Shown: positions 28,774 through 56,238 of the stretch, piece by piece | How positions within the stretch are numbered: the stretch's first letter is position 1 | Layout of the letters: each line of letters opens with the position of its first letter | Source: a bacterium | GTDB lineage: Bacteria; Armatimonadota; Zipacnadia; Zipacnadales; UBA11051 | NCBI GenBank assembly: GCA_021372615.1 | Contig: JAJFUB010000095.1 | Span: 1 to 56,489 of the forward strand | DNA: 56,489 bases | Direction of reading: 5' to 3' | The notes under the pieces: model-generated | Told to the model about the DNA's origin: nothing | Seen by the model: only the letters and a program-made list of their open reading frames with translations | Database searches by the model: none | Made by a program: the position numbers and the translations under genes

Positions 28774-29841
28774 TCAGAAATCCCACTTGAACTCGGGATT
28801 CTGGCATTTGACCACCTGGATGATCCGGCTGACCTCCAGGGCGTCGGCGTTCGCGATCGGGAACGGAACGCCTTCGCGCAGCGTGCGGTAGAGATGCCGG
28901 GCAGTCTCGATCTCCACGTAGACCCACATGTTCGTGTCGGGCTCGACCGTCTGCGTCTCGTCGCGCCACGGCAGGTCCGTGTCGCTCCAGTGGCCGCCGT
29001 TCAGAGGCGGCGAGCCTGTGCTGGCGGTCGCCTCGCAGAACTCGAAGCCTGGGTCGAGGTAGCGCAGGCGGATGTGCTTCTCGTCGGCGCAGATGAGGCT
29101 CCCTCGGCTCCCGTACACGGTGCAAAGGGCTCCGGGCAAGGCCACGTTGTTGCTGATCTCCAGATCGACGACGATCCCGTTCTCGCCAGTCAGGACGACC
29201 TTCACGTGGGTCTCCGCATCGGCGATGGTGTTGACGCCCTTCAGGTTGCCCCAGATGTCCGTCACCGGGCCGCCGATGAACTGCATGGCATGGTCAATGA
29301 TGTGGGAGCCCCAGTTGTTCAGCTGGCCGCCACCGTACCGGAGGTAGGCCTGCCAGTCGGCCCGGCGAGAGAAGGCGTGGTGACGGCACAACTTGACCTG
29401 TATGATGTCGCCGAGGAGGCCGCTCCTGACGATCCCGAAGATCTGCTGCATGGCCGGCTCGAAGCGGTGATTGTGCAGGAAGAAGAGCTTCCCGGGGTAG
29501 TCCCGGTCGGCCTGGCGCAACTGCTCGACCTCGTCATGAGACATGGCGATGGGCTTTTCGAGCAACACGAACTTGCCGGCGGCAAGCGCCTGCAAGGCGT
29601 CAGCCACATGCGTCAGGGAACGCGTGGCGATGATCACCAACTCCACCTTGGGATCCGCCAACAGGTCCTCGGCATTGGTGTATCCGGCGCAACCGTAGTC
29701 CGCGACGAGTTTGTCTACCTTCGGCTGCTCGACATCGCAGCCCGCCACGACCTCGTACATGCCGGTCTGAGCGGCGAAGTGCGTCACGTGAACGGACCCG
29801 ATGCGCCCGAGCCCCCAGGCTCCCAGCCTAATCGCTGACAT
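28774..29841 (-). CDS. Gfo/Idh/MocA family oxidoreductase
   Basis: A 355-residue NAD(P)-dependent dehydrogenase. The Rossmann motif GAWGLGRIGSVHVTHF is at residues 7-22 and EKPIAMSHDEVEQL near 95-108 carries the conserved Lys. GGQLNNWGSHIIDHAMQF gives the catalytic-type His pair. It fits inositol, glucose or scyllo-inosose dehydrogenases in length. AGGAGACTTCGAC precedes the ATG at 29841; the open frame upstream lacks family sequence. It is separated from the following dehydroquinase-like gene by only 24 bases, so the two are probably co-transcribed. The gap 29842-30016 to the next upstream gene holds no gene. Confidence 0.92.
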   Translation of the reverse strand: MSAIRLGAWGLGRIGSVHVTHFAAQTGMYEVVAGCDVEQPKVDKLVADYGCAGYTNAEDLLADPKVELVIIATRSLTHVADALQALAAGKFVLLEKPIAMSHDEVEQLRQADRDYPGKLFFLHNHRFEPAMQQIFGIVRSGLLGDIIQVKLCRHHAFSRRADWQAYLRYGGGQLNNWGSHIIDHAMQFIGGPVTDIWGNLKGVNTIADAETHVKVVLTGENGIVVDLEISNNVALPGALCTVYGSRGSLICADEKHIRLRYLDPGFEFCEATASTGSPPLNGGHWSDTDLPWRDETQTVEPDTNMWVYVEIETARHLYRTLREGVPFPIANADALEVSRIIQVVKCQNPEFKWDF

Positions 29842-31615: not shown

Positions 31616-31689
31616 GAACCTGGCCGCCACAAACAAAAAGCCCTTCTGCTGGCTAGCAGAAGGGCCTGTGTGTAACGTATGGCGGGGCT
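31616..31689. repeat. Left attachment repeat (attL candidate)
   Basis: The last 49 bases (31641-31689) match 56122-56170 with 3 differences, ending in TGGCGGGGCT, the last ten bases of the tRNA-Asp gene read in reverse. The preceding 25 bases are weakly similar. In the plus-strand frame it encodes KKPFCWLAEGPVCNVWRG, nearly the C-terminus of the recombinase at the other end. Confidence 0.85.
31640..31665 (-). terminator. Orphan copy of the tRNA-Asp terminator in attL
   Basis: GCCCTTCTGCT (31640-31650) and AGCAGAAGGGC (31655-31665) form an 11-bp stem, followed on the minus strand by TTTTTGTTTG. It was presumably the chromosomal terminator of tRNA-Asp before integration. Confidence 0.75.
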
Positions 31690-31757
31690 TACGCGGCGAC
31701 TTTCTGAACTACTTCCGCAGCGAGGAATGCCGGGAGATGGGCGAGAGGGTCGCCTGA
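31690..31757 (+). other. Detached alternative C-terminal tail of the element integrase
   Basis: In frame with the recombinase-like reading of attL, 22 codons follow after WRG and end FRSEECREMGERVA and stop. There is no start codon of its own. When the element circularises by recombination within the repeats, the recombinase frame runs straight into this tail. The frame continuity is seen; use in the circular form is inferred. Confidence 0.7.
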
Positions 31758-31850
31758 ATGCCCGGCTGTCCACGTTGGCTCCCCGCCCTGCACAATATCG
31801 GCAACTGGCTCAGAAGCGAGGAGTGCCGGGAGATGGCGGACGCGGTCTAG
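31758..31850 (+). pseudogene. Second copy of the RSEECREM tail, probable remnant
   Basis: Directly after the preceding stop and in the same frame, ATG opens a 30-codon reading frame ending NWLRSEECREMADAV and stop. RSEECREM is shared with the preceding tail, so a tail fragment has been duplicated. I see no RBS; probably a remnant of an earlier recombinase end. Confidence 0.5.
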
Positions 31851-50105: not shown

Positions 50106-50852
50106 ATGGCCCGGCCGCGAGGAACCAAAGTGAGCAAGGAACAGCAGGCACGGCTTGCTACTGGAGCGGGCAAGCTCATCGGATACATCCGCGTGAGCAC
50201 GGCCCAGCAGGGCGCGAACGGGCACTCCCTCGACGGCCAGCGGACCCGCCTGCACGAGACCGCCGCCCGCGAGGGCTTCGACCTCACTGACGTAGTGGCC
50301 GAGGTGGAGAGCGGCGCGAAGGAGCGCAATGGTCTGGCCGGGGTGCAGGCCCGCGTCCTGGCCGGCGAGGCGCAGGGGATCATCTTCCCCAAGGTGGATC
50401 GCCTCGGGCGCAGTATGGTTCACCTGCTGAAGGTCGTGGACTGGGCCGTCAAGAACCGCATAGACCTGCTGAGTGCCGACGAGGGCTGGCAGGTTCGCGA
50501 CGGCAAGAAGATTGACAAGATGCTCCCCTTCCGCCTGGCGATGGCGGAAGTCGAGCTTGAGCGCATCCGCGAGCGGACCCGCGACGGCCTGAAGGCAGCG
50601 AAGCAGAAGGGCGTCCGCTTGGGGCGACCGGCCGAGAACGTGGGCGACTTGGCGAAGCGAGCGACGGAACTGCGGCGGCAGGGCAATACCTGGCAGGAGA
50701 TCGCCGACCTCTTCAACGCCGAGGGCCTGCGGACGGCGCGTGGGGCGGAGTTCAAGACCACGACCATTGCCCGGATGATTGAGCGCACGGACCCGACCGC
50801 GAACCCCGAAGGGGGCTACCGGGGAAACGCACTCGCCGCCGCCGCGATGTGA
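50106..50852 (+). CDS. Small serine recombinase (resolvase/invertase family)
   Basis: A 248-residue recombinase. LIGYIRVSTAQQ contains the catalytic Ser31, FPKVDRLGRSMVHLL the conserved DRLGR, and EVELERIRERTRDGLKAAKQ the long E-helix. The C-terminal 60 residues are a Hin/resolvase-type DNA-binding helix-turn-helix (RRQGNTWQEIADLFNAEG). AGGAGG precedes the ATG. It is a second recombinase besides the large one at 54718 and could resolve dimers, invert a segment, or control copy number of the excised circle. The inverted repeat at 50034-50061 is a possible target. Confidence 0.92.
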   Translation: MARPRGTKVSKEQQARLATGAGKLIGYIRVSTAQQGANGHSLDGQRTRLHETAAREGFDLTDVVAEVESGAKERNGLAGVQARVLAGEAQGIIFPKVDRLGRSMVHLLKVVDWAVKNRIDLLSADEGWQVRDGKKIDKMLPFRLAMAEVELERIRERTRDGLKAAKQKGVRLGRPAENVGDLAKRATELRRQGNTWQEIADLFNAEGLRTARGAEFKTTTIARMIERTDPTANPEGGYRGNALAAAAM

Positions 50853-50926
50853 AGCGGCGGCCGCATGGCGAGGCCAACTGACGGCGTCGAGCCGTGACAG
50901 TCAGACTGGGTAGGAGGGGAATGCCG

Positions 50927-53900
50927 ATGACCACTGTCTTCCTGTCCTATGCCCGCGGTGACGATGAGCCGTTCGCGCGGCGGCTGCATGACGACCTGGA
51001 GGCGGCCGGCCTCGATGTCTGGTTCGACCGCCTCGACATGCCCAGCCGTGCCCTCACGTTCCTGCAGGAGATCCGCGACGCGATCTCGGCGCGGGACCGA
51101 CTCGTGCTCGTGTTCGGTCCCAGCGCCCTGACCTCCGAATACGTAGAAGCCGAGTGGCGGTGGGCCTTCGACTTCGGCAAACCAGTCAACCCCGTCCTGC
51201 GCCTGAGCGACTATGCCGATCTCCCCGACGAGTTGAGGCTCATCGACGCCCCCGACTTCCGCGATGACGCCCACTACCAGGAGCGCCTGGAGACGCTCGT
51301 GCGCCAGCTCTCCGAGCCCGTGCCGCCGATGGGCAAGCTGGTCGGTGTGCCGTCGCTGCCGCAGCACCTGCTGAAGCGGCCGGACCGGCTGCGGGCGCTC
51401 AAGGACGCTGTGCTGGCCGATGTGCGCCGCACCGCCGTCGTCACCGGCGAGCCGGCGCGGGTCGGCGTGCATGGCATGGGCGGCATCGGCAAGTCGGTGC
51501 TGGCGACGATGCTGGCGCGCGATACCGAGGTGCGCTGGGCTTTCCCCGATGGCGTCATCTGGGTGCCTATCGGCCAGTCGCCCAACGTGGCGGAGTTGCA
51601 GCGGCTCATCGCCAAGGCTCTGGGCGATCCGGGCATCTTCGACAACGCGGGTGAGGGCAAGGCGAAGCTGCAGAAGCTGCTGGCGGACCGGGCGGTGCTG
51701 CTGCTGCTCGACGATGTGTGGGATGCCAACCACCTCGACTTCTTCGACTGTCTGGGGCCGCGCTGCCGCATGGTCATCACCAGCCGGGATGCGAGCATCA
51801 TCACGGCGATCGGCGGCACGGAGCACCAGGTGCAACTCCTGACGGAGGCCGAGGCGCGGGACCTGTTGGCCGAATGGGCCGGGCTCGACGTCGCCGCGCT
51901 GCCGGAGCAGGCCGTGGCGGTCATGGCGCATTGCGGGCAGCTGCCGCTGGCCCTGTCGCTGTGCGGGGCCATGGTACGCGACGGTGCGAGCTGGGACGAC
52001 CTGCTGGAGGCGCTGGCTGAGGCCGACCTGGAGTACCTGGATCATCCCCACGGCAGCATCCTGCGCAGCATCAAGCTGAGTGTGGACCGGCTGCCCGAGG
52101 ACGAGGCGGAGCGGTTCGCGGAGTTGCGGGTCTTCCCGCCGGATGAGACCGTGCCGGAGGCGGCGGTGCTGATGCTGTGGGCGCACACGGGCGGGCTGTC
52201 GCAGCGCCATGCGCGGAAGCTGCTGACGACGCTGGAGCAGCGTGCGCTGGTGCGGCTGGATGGCGTGGCGCCGAATCGACGCGTGTCGCTGCACGACCTG
52301 GTGTACGACTACATGGCACAGATGGTGGCGGACGAGGCGGCGCTGCATGGGGACCTAGTAGAGGCATACCGGGCGAAGTGTCCGGAGGGGTGGGCCTCGG
52401 GGCCGAATGACGGGTACTTCTTCGAGCACCTGCGGGAGCACCTGAAGGCGGCGGGGCGGGCGGAGGAGATTCTGGCGCTGTGCCTGGACCTGTGGTGGCT
52501 GGAGGCAAAGACCGAGGCGGGGCTGGTGTTCGACCTGCCGCGCGATTTGGAGGCAGGGCAGGCGGCGCTGTCGCTGGATGATCCGGTGTGCAAGAACCTG
52601 CGGCTGCTGGAGCAGGCCCTCCGCAACGACCTGCACTTCGTCGCCCGGCACCCGACGACGTTGTTCCAGTGCCTGTGGAACAGTGCTTGGTGGTATGACT
52701 GCCCGGACGCGGCGCACTATTGCGCCCCCCCGTCGGCGGCTGGAGTATCGCCGCCCCCCCCCTGGGAACGCTCCGAGCCGAAGCTATGCACGCTGCTTGA
52801 GCGCTGGCGGGAGGAGAAGGAGCAGTCGCAGCCTGGTCTTGCCTGGCTGCGGTCGTTGCGTCCTCCACCGCAGGCCATAGGGGGGCCGCAGATCGCTTGT
52901 CTTGGCGGCTCTCCGCGCGCAATGCTCTCCGTGGCCGTCTCTCCGCGTGGGATGATTGCCGCCAGCTCCAGGGATGGTATGGTATGGCTGTGGGATTCCT
53001 CGGTGTTTGCTCAAGTGGCCGTTCACCATGTCCACGACGCCGCCGTTACCAGCGTCACCTTCTCACCCGATGGCAGGCGGTTCGCAACCGGTTCTGAAGA
53101 CGATGCAGTGCGGGTGTGGGATGCGGACAGTGGCGCGGAACTACTATGCCTCACTGGTCACCAGGACTGGGTACAGAGCGTCACGTTCTCACAGGACGGA
53201 AACTGGCTCGCGTCCGGTTCTTCGGACGGGACAGTGCGAGTCTGGGACTCCCAGACCGGTGCCGAAGTGGCCTGCCTGCGCGGGCACAGGCCCTGGGTCA
53301 ATCATGTTGTCTTCTCGCCGGACGGGATGCAGGTCGCCTCCGGATCAGACGACGGCACTGTCCGTGTCTGGGAAGCGTGCACCGGGGCAGAGATCGCCTG
53401 TCTACAGGGCCACGAAGGCGTTGTGTTTGATGTGGCCTTCTCTGAGGACAGTAGCCTCCTTGCATCCGGCTCCACCAACGGCGTGCGGATCTGGGATACG
53501 CTCTCTCTGACGCAGGCCGCGTGCCTGGAGACACATGACCGGGTGAGTGGTCTTGCGTTCTCACCCGACGGCGCACGGCTCGCGGGTGGTTCTTATGATG
53601 GGACCCTGCATCTGTGGGACACAGCGACATGGACTGAGATTGCCCGTCTACGCGGCCACGAGGAGCCTGTCACAAGCGCGGTATTCCTCGACAGCCGTCG
53701 TCTGGTGTCTGCATCGTGGGATCAGACTGTTCGCGTTTGGGATGTAGACGCCGCAGTCGAGACAACTCGAACAACGACCTCGCCATACCTCAAGCACATC
53801 TGTTTCTCGCCAGACGGAACGCTGCTTCTCGGTGTTGGAGAAGACGGTGGAGCGTGCGTGCTCAACTGGCAGGACGGCCGGCCCGTCGCGTGCGTCAAGT

Positions 53901-54703
53901 GTCCTGAGGTTGTTACAAACGCCGCTTTCTCGCCCGACGGAGCTCGGTTCGGCCTCACATCGTGGGACCAGACACTTCGCGTCTGCAGCGTTCTGGCGCC
54001 GGAGGAGGCAGGACCGGTTCTCAGCGACGATGGCCCGCTCCGGAGCATAGCATTCTCACGGGATGGTCAGAGGTTAGCCACGGGAAGCGGGCGCGAACTG
54101 ACCCACGAGAACTGCACGGTGCGGATATGGGACGCCGTTGATCTTGAGCCGATCGCATCCAACGACGGACATACCGGTCCGGTGATTGCTGTGGCCTTCT
54201 CACCAGACGGTACTGGCCTTGCCTCCGGTTCATACGACCACACAGTGCGGTTGTGGGACGCCAGCAGCGGAGCGTGTGTCGCCTGCCTGCACGGGCACGA
54301 GCACTGGGTCCAGGCCGTTGCATTCTCGCCCGACGGCGCTCGTCTGGTGTCTGTCGCGCTCGACGGGACGACAAGAGTGTGGGACGCGGGCTCGTACCGC
54401 TGTGTGGAGGTTATCCGCGGGATGGGCGACGCCGCAGCTATCTCCGGCGGAGCCAGATGGTGGGCGCTGAGTGATGGGGTTGAGACGCTGGTACAATCGG
54501 GAGCGGGGCGACGGGTCATGGGTTGGTGGCCCAGGCCATTTGAGGAGATCGTGACACACCCCTCTGGTCGGATGTGGGCCGGCCGCCTCGGCAGCCAGTG
54601 CATCACCCTATTCGCCCTCGAAGGCAATCCTGACACAGCGACGCTGCAGGGAAGAGCCGACTCAACCGAAGTCCCGGCGCTGCCTTGGCGCACCGACACG
54701 TGA
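50927..54703 (+). CDS. TIR-NB-ARC-WD40 NLR-like STAND defence protein
   Basis: A 1,258-residue protein. Residues 1-130 are a TIR domain (TTVFLSYARGDDEPFARRLH; probable NADase Glu76 in SEYVEAEWRWAF). Residues about 150-420 are NB-ARC: P-loop GMGGIGKS at 183-190, Walker B LLLLDDVW at 258-265, RMVITSRD, and LPLALSLCG. A helical linker follows. From about residue 657 there are about 14 WD40-type blades (for example GHEHWVQAVAFSPDGARL), enough for two seven-bladed propellers. The layout is that of bacterial NLR-like immune proteins, in which a sensed ligand triggers oligomerisation and NAD depletion. The start at 50927 is nine bases after AGGAGG; 50921 is possible. The WD40 half is visibly less GC-rich than the first half. 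Two C tracts lie at the junction. Confidence 0.9.
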   Translation: MTTVFLSYARGDDEPFARRLHDDLEAAGLDVWFDRLDMPSRALTFLQEIRDAISARDRLVLVFGPSALTSEYVEAEWRWAFDFGKPVNPVLRLSDYADLPDELRLIDAPDFRDDAHYQERLETLVRQLSEPVPPMGKLVGVPSLPQHLLKRPDRLRALKDAVLADVRRTAVVTGEPARVGVHGMGGIGKSVLATMLARDTEVRWAFPDGVIWVPIGQSPNVAELQRLIAKALGDPGIFDNAGEGKAKLQKLLADRAVLLLLDDVWDANHLDFFDCLGPRCRMVITSRDASIITAIGGTEHQVQLLTEAEARDLLAEWAGLDVAALPEQAVAVMAHCGQLPLALSLCGAMVRDGASWDDLLEALAEADLEYLDHPHGSILRSIKLSVDRLPEDEAERFAELRVFPPDETVPEAAVLMLWAHTGGLSQRHARKLLTTLEQRALVRLDGVAPNRRVSLHDLVYDYMAQMVADEAALHGDLVEAYRAKCPEGWASGPNDGYFFEHLREHLKAAGRAEEILALCLDLWWLEAKTEAGLVFDLPRDLEAGQAALSLDDPVCKNLRLLEQALRNDLHFVARHPTTLFQCLWNSAWWYDCPDAAHYCAPPSAAGVSPPPPWERSEPKLCTLLERWREEKEQSQPGLAWLRSLRPPPQAIGGPQIACLGGSPRAMLSVAVSPRGMIAASSRDGMVWLWDSSVFAQVAVHHVHDAAVTSVTFSPDGRRFATGSEDDAVRVWDADSGAELLCLTGHQDWVQSVTFSQDGNWLASGSSDGTVRVWDSQTGAEVACLRGHRPWVNHVVFSPDGMQVASGSDDGTVRVWEACTGAEIACLQGHEGVVFDVAFSEDSSLLASGSTNGVRIWDTLSLTQAACLETHDRVSGLAFSPDGARLAGGSYDGTLHLWDTATWTEIARLRGHEEPVTSAVFLDSRRLVSASWDQTVRVWDVDAAVETTRTTTSPYLKHICFSPDGTLLLGVGEDGGACVLNWQDGRPVACVKCPEVVTNAAFSPDGARFGLTSWDQTLRVCSVLAPEEAGPVLSDDGPLRSIAFSRDGQRLATGSGRELTHENCTVRIWDAVDLEPIASNDGHTGPVIAVAFSPDGTGLASGSYDHTVRLWDASSGACVACLHGHEHWVQAVAFSPDGARLVSVALDGTTRVWDAGSYRCVEVIRGMGDAAAISGGARWWALSDGVETLVQSGAGRRVMGWWPRPFEEIVTHPSGRMWAGRLGSQCITLFALEGNPDTATLQGRADSTEVPALPWRTDT
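52725..52762. repeat. Poly-C tracts (C7 and C9) inside the TIR-NLR gene
   Basis: C7 at 52725-52731 and C9 at 52754-52762 lie in the coding sequence between the helical linker and the first WD40 blade, encoding Pro-rich peptide (CAPPSAAGVSPPPPWE). Slippage in either would put the WD40 sensor out of frame. The frame is open in this sequence. Confidence 0.8.
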
Positions 54704-54717
54704 TAGAGGACGGCACG

Positions 54718-56172
54718 ATGAGAACCGCTGTGCTGTACGCTAGGGTCTCCAGCAAGGAGCAAGCGGACGGAGGCTTCTCAATCCCGGCCCAGCTCAAGCT
54801 GCTGCAAGAGTACGCCCTGGACAAGGGCTTCCGCGTCGAGCGGGAGTTCGTGGATGTCGAGACCGCGAAGCAGGCTGGGCGAGCCGCTTTCGGGGAGATG
54901 GTCGCCTACCTGCAGCGCAACCGAGCCTGTCGCACCGTGCTAGTCGAGAAGACAGACCGCCTATATCGCAACCTCCGCGACTATGTGACTCTCGACGAAC
55001 TCGACCTGGAGATCCACTTCGTCAAGGAGAACTTCGTCCTATCCGATGAGTGCCGGTCCACGGAGAAGTTCATGCACGGGATCAAGGTGCTGATGGCCAA
55101 GAACTACGTGGACAACCTCTCTGAGGAAGCCAGCAAGGGTATGCGGGAGAAGGCCGAACAGGGCACGTGGCCGTCGGCGGCACCCATCGGCTACGTGAAT
55201 GTGCAGAATGGCGACAAACGCGAGATCGCGCCGGACCCGGACACAGCCCCCGTCGTCAGGAAGGTCTTCGAGTGGTACGCCGCCGGCGATTGCAGCTTCG
55301 CCGAGGTGGCGAGTCGTGCCGCGGCGGAGGGACTGACCACCCGGTTCGGCAAGCGTCCGGCCAAGGTCACGGTCGAGCGCATTCTGAAGAACCCCTTCTA
55401 CATCGGCACCTTCACCTGGGGCGGCCGCACCTACCAGGGCAACCATGAGCCCCTGATCGGCGTCGAGCTGTTCCAGCGCGCCCAGGAGGCCCTGCACAAG
55501 ATCAACCATCCCGTCGAGGAAGCCAAGCGCACGTTCGCTTACACGGGGCTCATCAGGTGCGCGCACTGCGGCTGCTCGATCACCGCGGAGATCCGCAAGG
55601 GGAAGTACGTCTACTATCACTGCACCGGCTCCAAGGGCGGGTGTGACAAGCCGGCCATCCGGGAGGAGCGCCTTCAGGAGCTGCTCGGGGACATCGTGAA
55701 GCGTGTTCAGATCAGCGGAGAGGACATCGAGTGGATCGTGTCGGCGCTGAAGGCCAGTCACCAGGACGAGACGGCCTACCACGAGGAGCAGGTGAGCAAG
55801 CTCCAGGCGGAAGTGAAACGGCTTCAGGACCGCTTGGACGCGGCCTACGAGGACAAGCTGGACGGAACCATTGGGGAAGACACCTGGCGCCGCAAGTCCA
55901 CCGAATGGCGCTCGCGGCAACTGGAGATGCAGGCGGCCATCGAGCGTCACCTGACGGCCAGTCAGGTCTACTACGAGGCCGGAATCAGGGTTCTGAAGCT
56001 GGCCCAGAATGCGTACACGCTGTGGCTGACCCAGCCCCAGACTGAGAAGAGGAAGCTGCTGAATCTGCTACAATCGAACTTGACCTTCGATGGCACGAAC
56101 CTAACGGCCACATACAGAAAACCCTTCTGCTGGTTAGCAGAAGGGCCTGTGCGTAGCGTATGGCGGGGCTGA
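54718..56172 (+). CDS. Large serine recombinase, integrase of the element
   Basis: A 484-residue integrase. TAVLYARVSSKEQ holds the catalytic Ser11, then VLVEKTDRLYRNLRDY. The recombinase domain covers about 160-260 (GYVNVQNGDKREIAPDPDTA, RILKNPFYIGTFTWGGRTY). A zinc ribbon has Cys281, Cys284, Cys302 and Cys309, and a coiled coil lies at about 345-400. The C-terminus, RKPFCWLAEGPVRSVWRG, is encoded by the right attachment repeat, and its TGA stop is inside the tRNA-Asp gene read in reverse. GAGGACGGCACG precedes the start; it is 14 bases after the TIR-NLR gene. It should integrate the element at tRNA-Asp and, with a directionality factor, excise it. After excision it would gain a 22-residue tail. 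Confidence 0.93.
   Translation: MRTAVLYARVSSKEQADGGFSIPAQLKLLQEYALDKGFRVEREFVDVETAKQAGRAAFGEMVAYLQRNRACRTVLVEKTDRLYRNLRDYVTLDELDLEIHFVKENFVLSDECRSTEKFMHGIKVLMAKNYVDNLSEEASKGMREKAEQGTWPSAAPIGYVNVQNGDKREIAPDPDTAPVVRKVFEWYAAGDCSFAEVASRAAAEGLTTRFGKRPAKVTVERILKNPFYIGTFTWGGRTYQGNHEPLIGVELFQRAQEALHKINHPVEEAKRTFAYTGLIRCAHCGCSITAEIRKGKYVYYHCTGSKGGCDKPAIREERLQELLGDIVKRVQISGEDIEWIVSALKASHQDETAYHEEQVSKLQAEVKRLQDRLDAAYEDKLDGTIGEDTWRRKSTEWRSRQLEMQAAIERHLTASQVYYEAGIRVLKLAQNAYTLWLTQPQTEKRKLLNLLQSNLTFDGTNLTATYRKPFCWLAEGPVRSVWRG
56097..56170. repeat. Right attachment repeat (attR candidate)
   Basis: It matches 31616-31689; the 49 bases 56122-56170 differ at three positions only. It contains the integrase C-terminus on the plus strand and the tRNA-Asp terminator and 3' end (TGGCGGGGCT) on the minus strand. 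Confidence 0.85.
56122..56145 (-). terminator. Rho-independent terminator of tRNA-Asp
   Basis: CCCTTCTGCT (56122-56131) and AGCAGAAGGG (56136-56145) form a 10-bp stem followed on the minus strand by TTTTCTG. It lies 16 bases after the tRNA 3' end and inside the integrase coding sequence on the other strand. Confidence 0.8.
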
Positions 56173-56238
56173 CGGGGCTCGAACCCGCGACTTCCACCTT
56201 GACAGGGTGGCACTCTAAACCGACTGAGCTACAGCCCC
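56161..56238 (-). tRNA. tRNA-Asp (GTC), integration site of the element
   Basis: Read on the minus strand: acceptor stem GGGGCTG/CAGCCCC, D-stem GCTC/GAGT, anticodon stem CCACC/GGTGG with loop CTGTCAA and anticodon GTC, T-arm GCGGGTTCGAGCCCCGT, discriminator G and encoded CCA. All parts are normal, so the gene is intact after integration. Its last ten bases lie in the right attachment repeat. Confidence 0.95.

Follow-up and report, generated by a model that had tools for sequence, protein, structure and literature searches.

The window considered here (the whole 56,489-nucleotide stretch that was analysed) carries near its right end the plus-strand gene for a 484-residue integrase (54718-56172), which starts at an ATG at 54718 and ends in EGPVRSVWRG. 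Pfam identifies Resolvase (1.7e-22), Recombinase (1.5e-18) and Zn_ribbon_recom (1e-10) domains in that order, followed by a coiled-coil (long helices at 336-438 in the model of a relative, L190): the architecture of a large serine recombinase. The gene runs into a minus-strand tRNA-Asp (GTC) gene, called by ARAGORN at 56161-56238, which we take as the host target, and the integrase TGA (56170-56172) falls inside it. An earlier note, made from the sequence alone, had claimed that the chromosomal protein ends VWRG with a stop supplied by the tRNA gene, and this is indeed what the annotation gives.

The region where the integrase 3′ end enters tRNA-Asp (56097-56178, plus strand) is the putative attR (P.B′); it is a direct repeat of 31616-31697 on the same strand, an imperfect copy that we read as attL (B.P′), with 87% identity over 82 nt and no gaps. 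Just 3′ of the tRNA, and overlapping the integrase codons for PFCWLAEG, lies a terminator-like hairpin on the minus strand (56122-56145; RNA fold -32.4 kcal/mol), which is absent from the list produced by a simple terminator scan despite a z of -4.9. A matching minus-strand hairpin is found in the left repeat (31641-31664, z about -4.9). Because both repeats carry the same hairpin, the attL left half resembles the terminator used by tRNA-Asp before the island integrated, and the element would thus bring a replacement terminator within its own integrase gene.

The left repeat also holds what appears to be the missing end of the integrase. Residues 461-484 match it in the same frame (79% in a translated match), and that frame runs on through VWRG-LRGDFLNYFRSEECREMGERVA to a stop at 31755-31757: a tail of 22 added residues (31689-31757, plus strand, including the stop) that is the predicted C-terminus in the circle, from its frame and from homologous tails in relatives. 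A scripted join of the right-hand P with the left-hand P′ gives a continuous frame ending in KPFCWLAEGPVRSVWRGLRGDFLNYFRSEECREMGERVA and a stop, with a tRNA-like core, TGGCGGGGCT, at the junction, antisense to the tRNA 3′ end. Since the repeats align without gaps, every crossover inside them would yield the same predicted 506-residue integrase, so that both the read-through into 22 codons and the contrast of a 506-residue circular form with a 484-residue chromosomal one, as the earlier note had them, are borne out at the level of the letters. A crossover to the right of 31757, which would undo this reading, is incompatible with the anatomy of the site, because the similarity of the repeats stops at 31697 and the body of the tRNA gene must be host DNA.

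Shortly downstream, at 31773-31850 (plus strand), tail matches identify a second copy, RWLPALHNIGNWLRSEECREMADAV followed by a stop, of the type seen at tRNA-Asn sites; it is possibly a fossil. Such close pairs of tails also occur in three other contigs (G035:C55, 11409/11519; G008:C59, 1434/1523; G036:C446, about 1074/1186), in several cases with tails of different types, tRNA-Asp and tRNA-Asn, and the second tail of a pair may be the fossil of an earlier target specificity.

Between the att sites lies an inferred integrated element of about 24.5 kb (31689-56160), delimited by those sites and by the domains of its cargo. This comprises a primase-helicase of the D5/NrS-1 type, an N4/N6 methyltransferase next to a large ORF that reads as helicase-like, a protein with TIR-like, NB-ARC and WD40 parts, and a small serine recombinase ("helicase" and "TIR" being labels given from reading the sequence). 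The 1269-residue protein just upstream of the integrase (50894-54703), with its TIR-like start, NB-ARC domain and WD40 repeats, resembles a defence or signalling protein. The small serine recombinase (248 residues, 50106-50852) shares the island with the large one, a pairing that likewise occurs in the Dehalococcoides ssrA islands, where the small enzyme is DsiA. A search with the reconstructed attB returned no clean empty site, and the matches within the same family lay mainly over the tRNA part.

Going by its closest named relatives, the host genome falls among the Zipacnadia-type Armatimonadota. Three relatives with both element ends in one contig (G011, G031 and G036) carry homologous tails, ending in WRAVRDDFTDFFRSEECLELARAVA and a stop, in frame at their left ends: IWRARRDDFAEWLGSEECLELARRAV, VWRTISDDFADFLRSAECLDLAQGLP and VWRAVRDDFTDFFRSEECLELARAVA, respectively. 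These left ends make a fair test, because it was the repeat, and not the tail, that led to them, and they answer the objection that the tail might never be in frame with the integrase in relatives. Across codons 10-24 of the four positional copies, differences number 26, 24 and 52 at codon positions 1, 2 and 3; the excess at the third position (52 of 102) has a permutation p of 0.00085, and pN/pS is 0.49 in frame vs 1.3-1.4 in the shifted frames. A profile search gave 45 tail copies at ≥28 bits in 16 genomes, of which 42 were used for rates: pN/pS is 0.36 in the distal tail (codons 10-23), and where the tail overlaps the attachment half-site (its first eight codons) it is 0.71 both in frame and in one shifted frame, in a set that was found by protein profile and is hence biased towards conserved residues. 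Because of that bias the coding claim rests on the four positional copies, from which conservation of the tail as real, in-frame coding sequence is well supported. The idea that the SEECREM peptide is a fragment of a host gene was ruled out, since its copies follow a tRNA-like core and are joined to the C-termini of integrases.

One genome (G023) holds about 20 tail copies on five contigs (C977, C501, C1087, C252 and C874; L200-L207). They share a strand within each contig, several follow a GC-rich hairpin and a TGGCTCCCC core, and on most of the contigs integrase searches gave no match; the whole looks like an array of integrated cassettes.

Integrase and tail are also found joined. In three contigs (G018:C11, G013:C73 and G008:C59) an integrase C-terminus passes directly and in frame into the tail, with no tRNA between, and in a different integrase lineage (G023:C30) a 230-residue open frame with a recombinase zinc ribbon ends in FRERLCWLPLSYELRNWMSSEECREMAAAI and a stop, again with no tRNA. 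A Geobacter record has at 75153 an integrase C-terminus that continues into WLPLADEIRNFFSAPSIPRLKSLCDQIEGRNL and a stop; the functional right end at 109118 terminates in tRNA-Asn as WLPSADSNHGHGD, and a further tail lies at 29297; this is the layout that a tandem array predicts, with an old integrase end joined to a new tail. Being truncated, the fused copies document the junction and the frame rather than a working gene: among the Armatimonadota, where fused copies are truncated or decayed, we found no intact full-length integrase with the 22-residue tail.

Full-length long forms come from phage. Three IMG/VR contigs (L188, L190 and L195) encode 517-residue integrases and a fourth (L191) one that is a residue shorter; they are 84-99% identical to that of L190, share a conserved tail ending in LSQEFISSLKALDLAA, and finish in YKLKEALSQEFISSLKALDLAA or close variants. 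In L190 endolysin and tail genes come after the attachment site, which places attP inside the phage genome. The integrase of L189/L238 (83-85% identical) follows the phage forms up to the core and then continues into antisense tRNA-Asp (GGTDEARTRDLLRDRQAL). The long forms that the earlier note expected of circular relatives therefore exist, with attP internal to a phage; IMG/VR classes the contigs as linear, and their free state is read from gene order. These phage tails are only loosely like that of the window. An AlphaFold model of the L190 protein, made from a shallow alignment (overall pLDDT 68.5), places helices in the tail at 491-501 and 504-512 (about 74-81). Elsewhere in L190 (12181-16140) a reverse transcriptase lies beside a tail-fibre-like gene, suggesting that this phage carries a diversity-generating retroelement. 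Searches of plasmid and phage collections for circular relatives gave only distant matches (≤32% identity), and a contig considered as a possible circle (G008:C51) was rejected because its ends do not overlap.

Among the integrase relatives covered, the majority terminate at or within a tRNA gene (Asn, Gln, Asp, Glu, Pro or Met), from which their last residues are taken. Two Armatimonadota loci (L008, G008:C51 25737-27161; L101, G010:C1 2671-3459) continue instead into a stretch of about 120 residues that has a ParB-type HTH (PF17762, E about 9e-6). For tRNA-Gln and tRNA-Pro elements in three genomes, a search of the 100 kb upstream of the integrase gave no left end. Isolated integrase C-terminal fragments adjoin tRNA-Asp or tRNA-Asn in five further contigs (G018:C21, G026:C38, G021:C35, G010:C15 and G006:C260), apparently kept as the terminator of the tRNA.

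Taken together, these data make a state-dependent long and short integrase well supported from sequence. As the earlier note proposed, the form of the enzyme would be tied to the state of its DNA, and this link to location gains weight because the tail shows, in relatives, the pattern of conservation of real protein sequence. We consider it probable that attP lies within the coding sequence of this tRNA-targeting large serine integrase, that the circle makes a long form which integration cuts back to 484 residues, and that the tail shifts activity or stability. In the free circle the gene would be complete and would encode a long integrase with a conserved, helical C-terminal tail (22 residues here); integration at the tRNA-Asp 3′ end would part the tail codons from the gene, putting them at the opposite end of the island, and leave host tRNA sequence to close the gene. 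The steps thus far are read from the repeats, the frame, the conserved coding tail, the phage long forms with internal attP and the tRNA-ended integrated forms. It would follow by logic that an integrated element is restricted to the short form and a circle to the long one. The long form would then be the one produced while the element establishes itself (attP x attB), the short form, as the sole form available to an integrated element, would be present at excision, and the tail may alter activity or stability of the enzyme between the two states.

What the tail does can be read in several ways, and a degradation tag or a domain for the integration phase is at least as likely as a tail that sets direction. 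If it is a degradation tag, circle integrase would be short-lived and the integrated form stable, a control over the amount of enzyme and not over catalytic direction. The ends of the tails fit this: of the 37 with the usual stop position, the last residue is I, V, M or A in 30 and the one before it is Ala in 23, with C-termini such as AAI, LAI, AAV and AVA, and the phage tails end LDLAA or LDVA, near the tmRNA tag ANNNLALAA (that of the window's host, not of the phage hosts). There is also a precedent in mycobacteriophage BPs, where the long repressor is degraded via an ssrA-like tag and the integrase has a C-terminal proteolysis signal as well (PMC4557955). However, most of the tails end in AI or AV, not LAA, and the conservation of inner residues (DDF..F.RSEEC.EL), which a tag alone does not need, indicates that a tag is not the whole story; we regard it as a possible but doubtful account.

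Somewhat less probable still is the model of the earlier note, in which the tail could set direction without a separate factor: a domain for activity or direction, by which the long form would favour attP x attB and the short form would permit or favour attL x attR. By construction the long form would exist only before integration and the short form only after it, but other serine integrases use a separate directionality factor, and many relatives end in arbitrary tRNA-derived peptides, so that the short form has no defined end. In favour of the model, the Mx8 integrase with a swapped C-terminus is changed in specificity and not inactivated (PMC6070905).

We think it unlikely that only the half-site is selected, with an open frame beyond it that is incidental to an enzyme indifferent to its last residues. 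The first tail codons are constrained as DNA, integrated forms tolerate many different tRNA-derived ends, and Geobacter has the same half-site without the SEEC part, all in keeping with this; the third-position excess in codons 10-24, present in frame only, and the conserved stop position in most copies argue against it. A shade less credible is the far-reaching proposal that DNA state sets direction throughout a widespread clade, the tail locking integration and its loss freeing excision with less or no need of a separate directionality factor. Finally, it is improbable that the left repeat is a decayed remnant from the end of an older island, unpaired with this integrase, and that the present element never had the junction: the 13% difference between the repeats, a left half that reads like an integrase C-terminus, the tandem arrays (as in the Geobacter record) and the second tail at 31773 would suit this, but the repeat-plus-tail layout recurs at the left ends in G011, G031 and G036, and a hairpin such as the tRNA terminator should have is present in the left half.

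Returning to the attP-in-integrase model, its parts have known counterparts. Phage Mx8 encodes a tyrosine recombinase as its Int and integrates at a tRNA-Asp gene. Its attP lies within the gene for the integrase, which on integration acquires a different 3′ end and yields an enzyme of altered specificity that stays active (PMC6070905, reviewing Tojo 1996 and Magrini 1999). The window element would likewise swap its integrase C-terminus on integration, although its enzyme, by its domains, is a large serine recombinase and its stop comes from the tRNA. SSV-type archaeal integrase genes are split into two pieces on integration, in contrast to the exchange of a short tail alone in the window element. 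They share with it a gene that extends across attP (PMC4383910). In Dehalococcoides, the 3′ end of the serine recombinase DsiB overlaps the ssrA attachment site, and its authors suggested that it might be fully functional only on the circle or beside another island (PMC3146451). The window integrase has the same overlap of 3′ end and att site, at tRNA-Asp rather than ssrA; the DsiB authors identified no conserved circle-only tail and ran no test of coding selection. In mycobacteriophage BPs, integration at an attP inside the repressor gene was shown experimentally to remove a C-terminal degradation tag (PMC4557955); as proposed for the window element, an in-gene attP links protein form to integration by stripping a C-terminal extension, but in BPs from a repressor and not an integrase.

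With Mx8, the DsiB suggestion and BPs before it, the principle was already known. Islander, published in 2014, noted that tRNA genes were not known as targets of serine integrases (PMC4383910); it is at or within such genes that most of the relatives studied here end. In the open-access literature we found no paper describing a tRNA-targeting serine integrase with a circle-only tail. What is new is the setting of a serine integrase at tRNA-Asp/Asn, a circle-only tail that is conserved and bears a coding signature, and the pairing of phage forms with integrated ones.

For this clade annotation has a practical pitfall: an integrase called from an integrated island is truncated or finishes in residues derived from a tRNA, and the natural integration-phase enzyme would thus be readable only by adding the tail from the island's other end. 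What makes a serine integrase integrate or excise is a central question, and it matters for the use of these enzymes as genome-engineering tools; an enzyme that in nature has two forms, set by the state of its DNA, would be a direct test of how direction is chosen.
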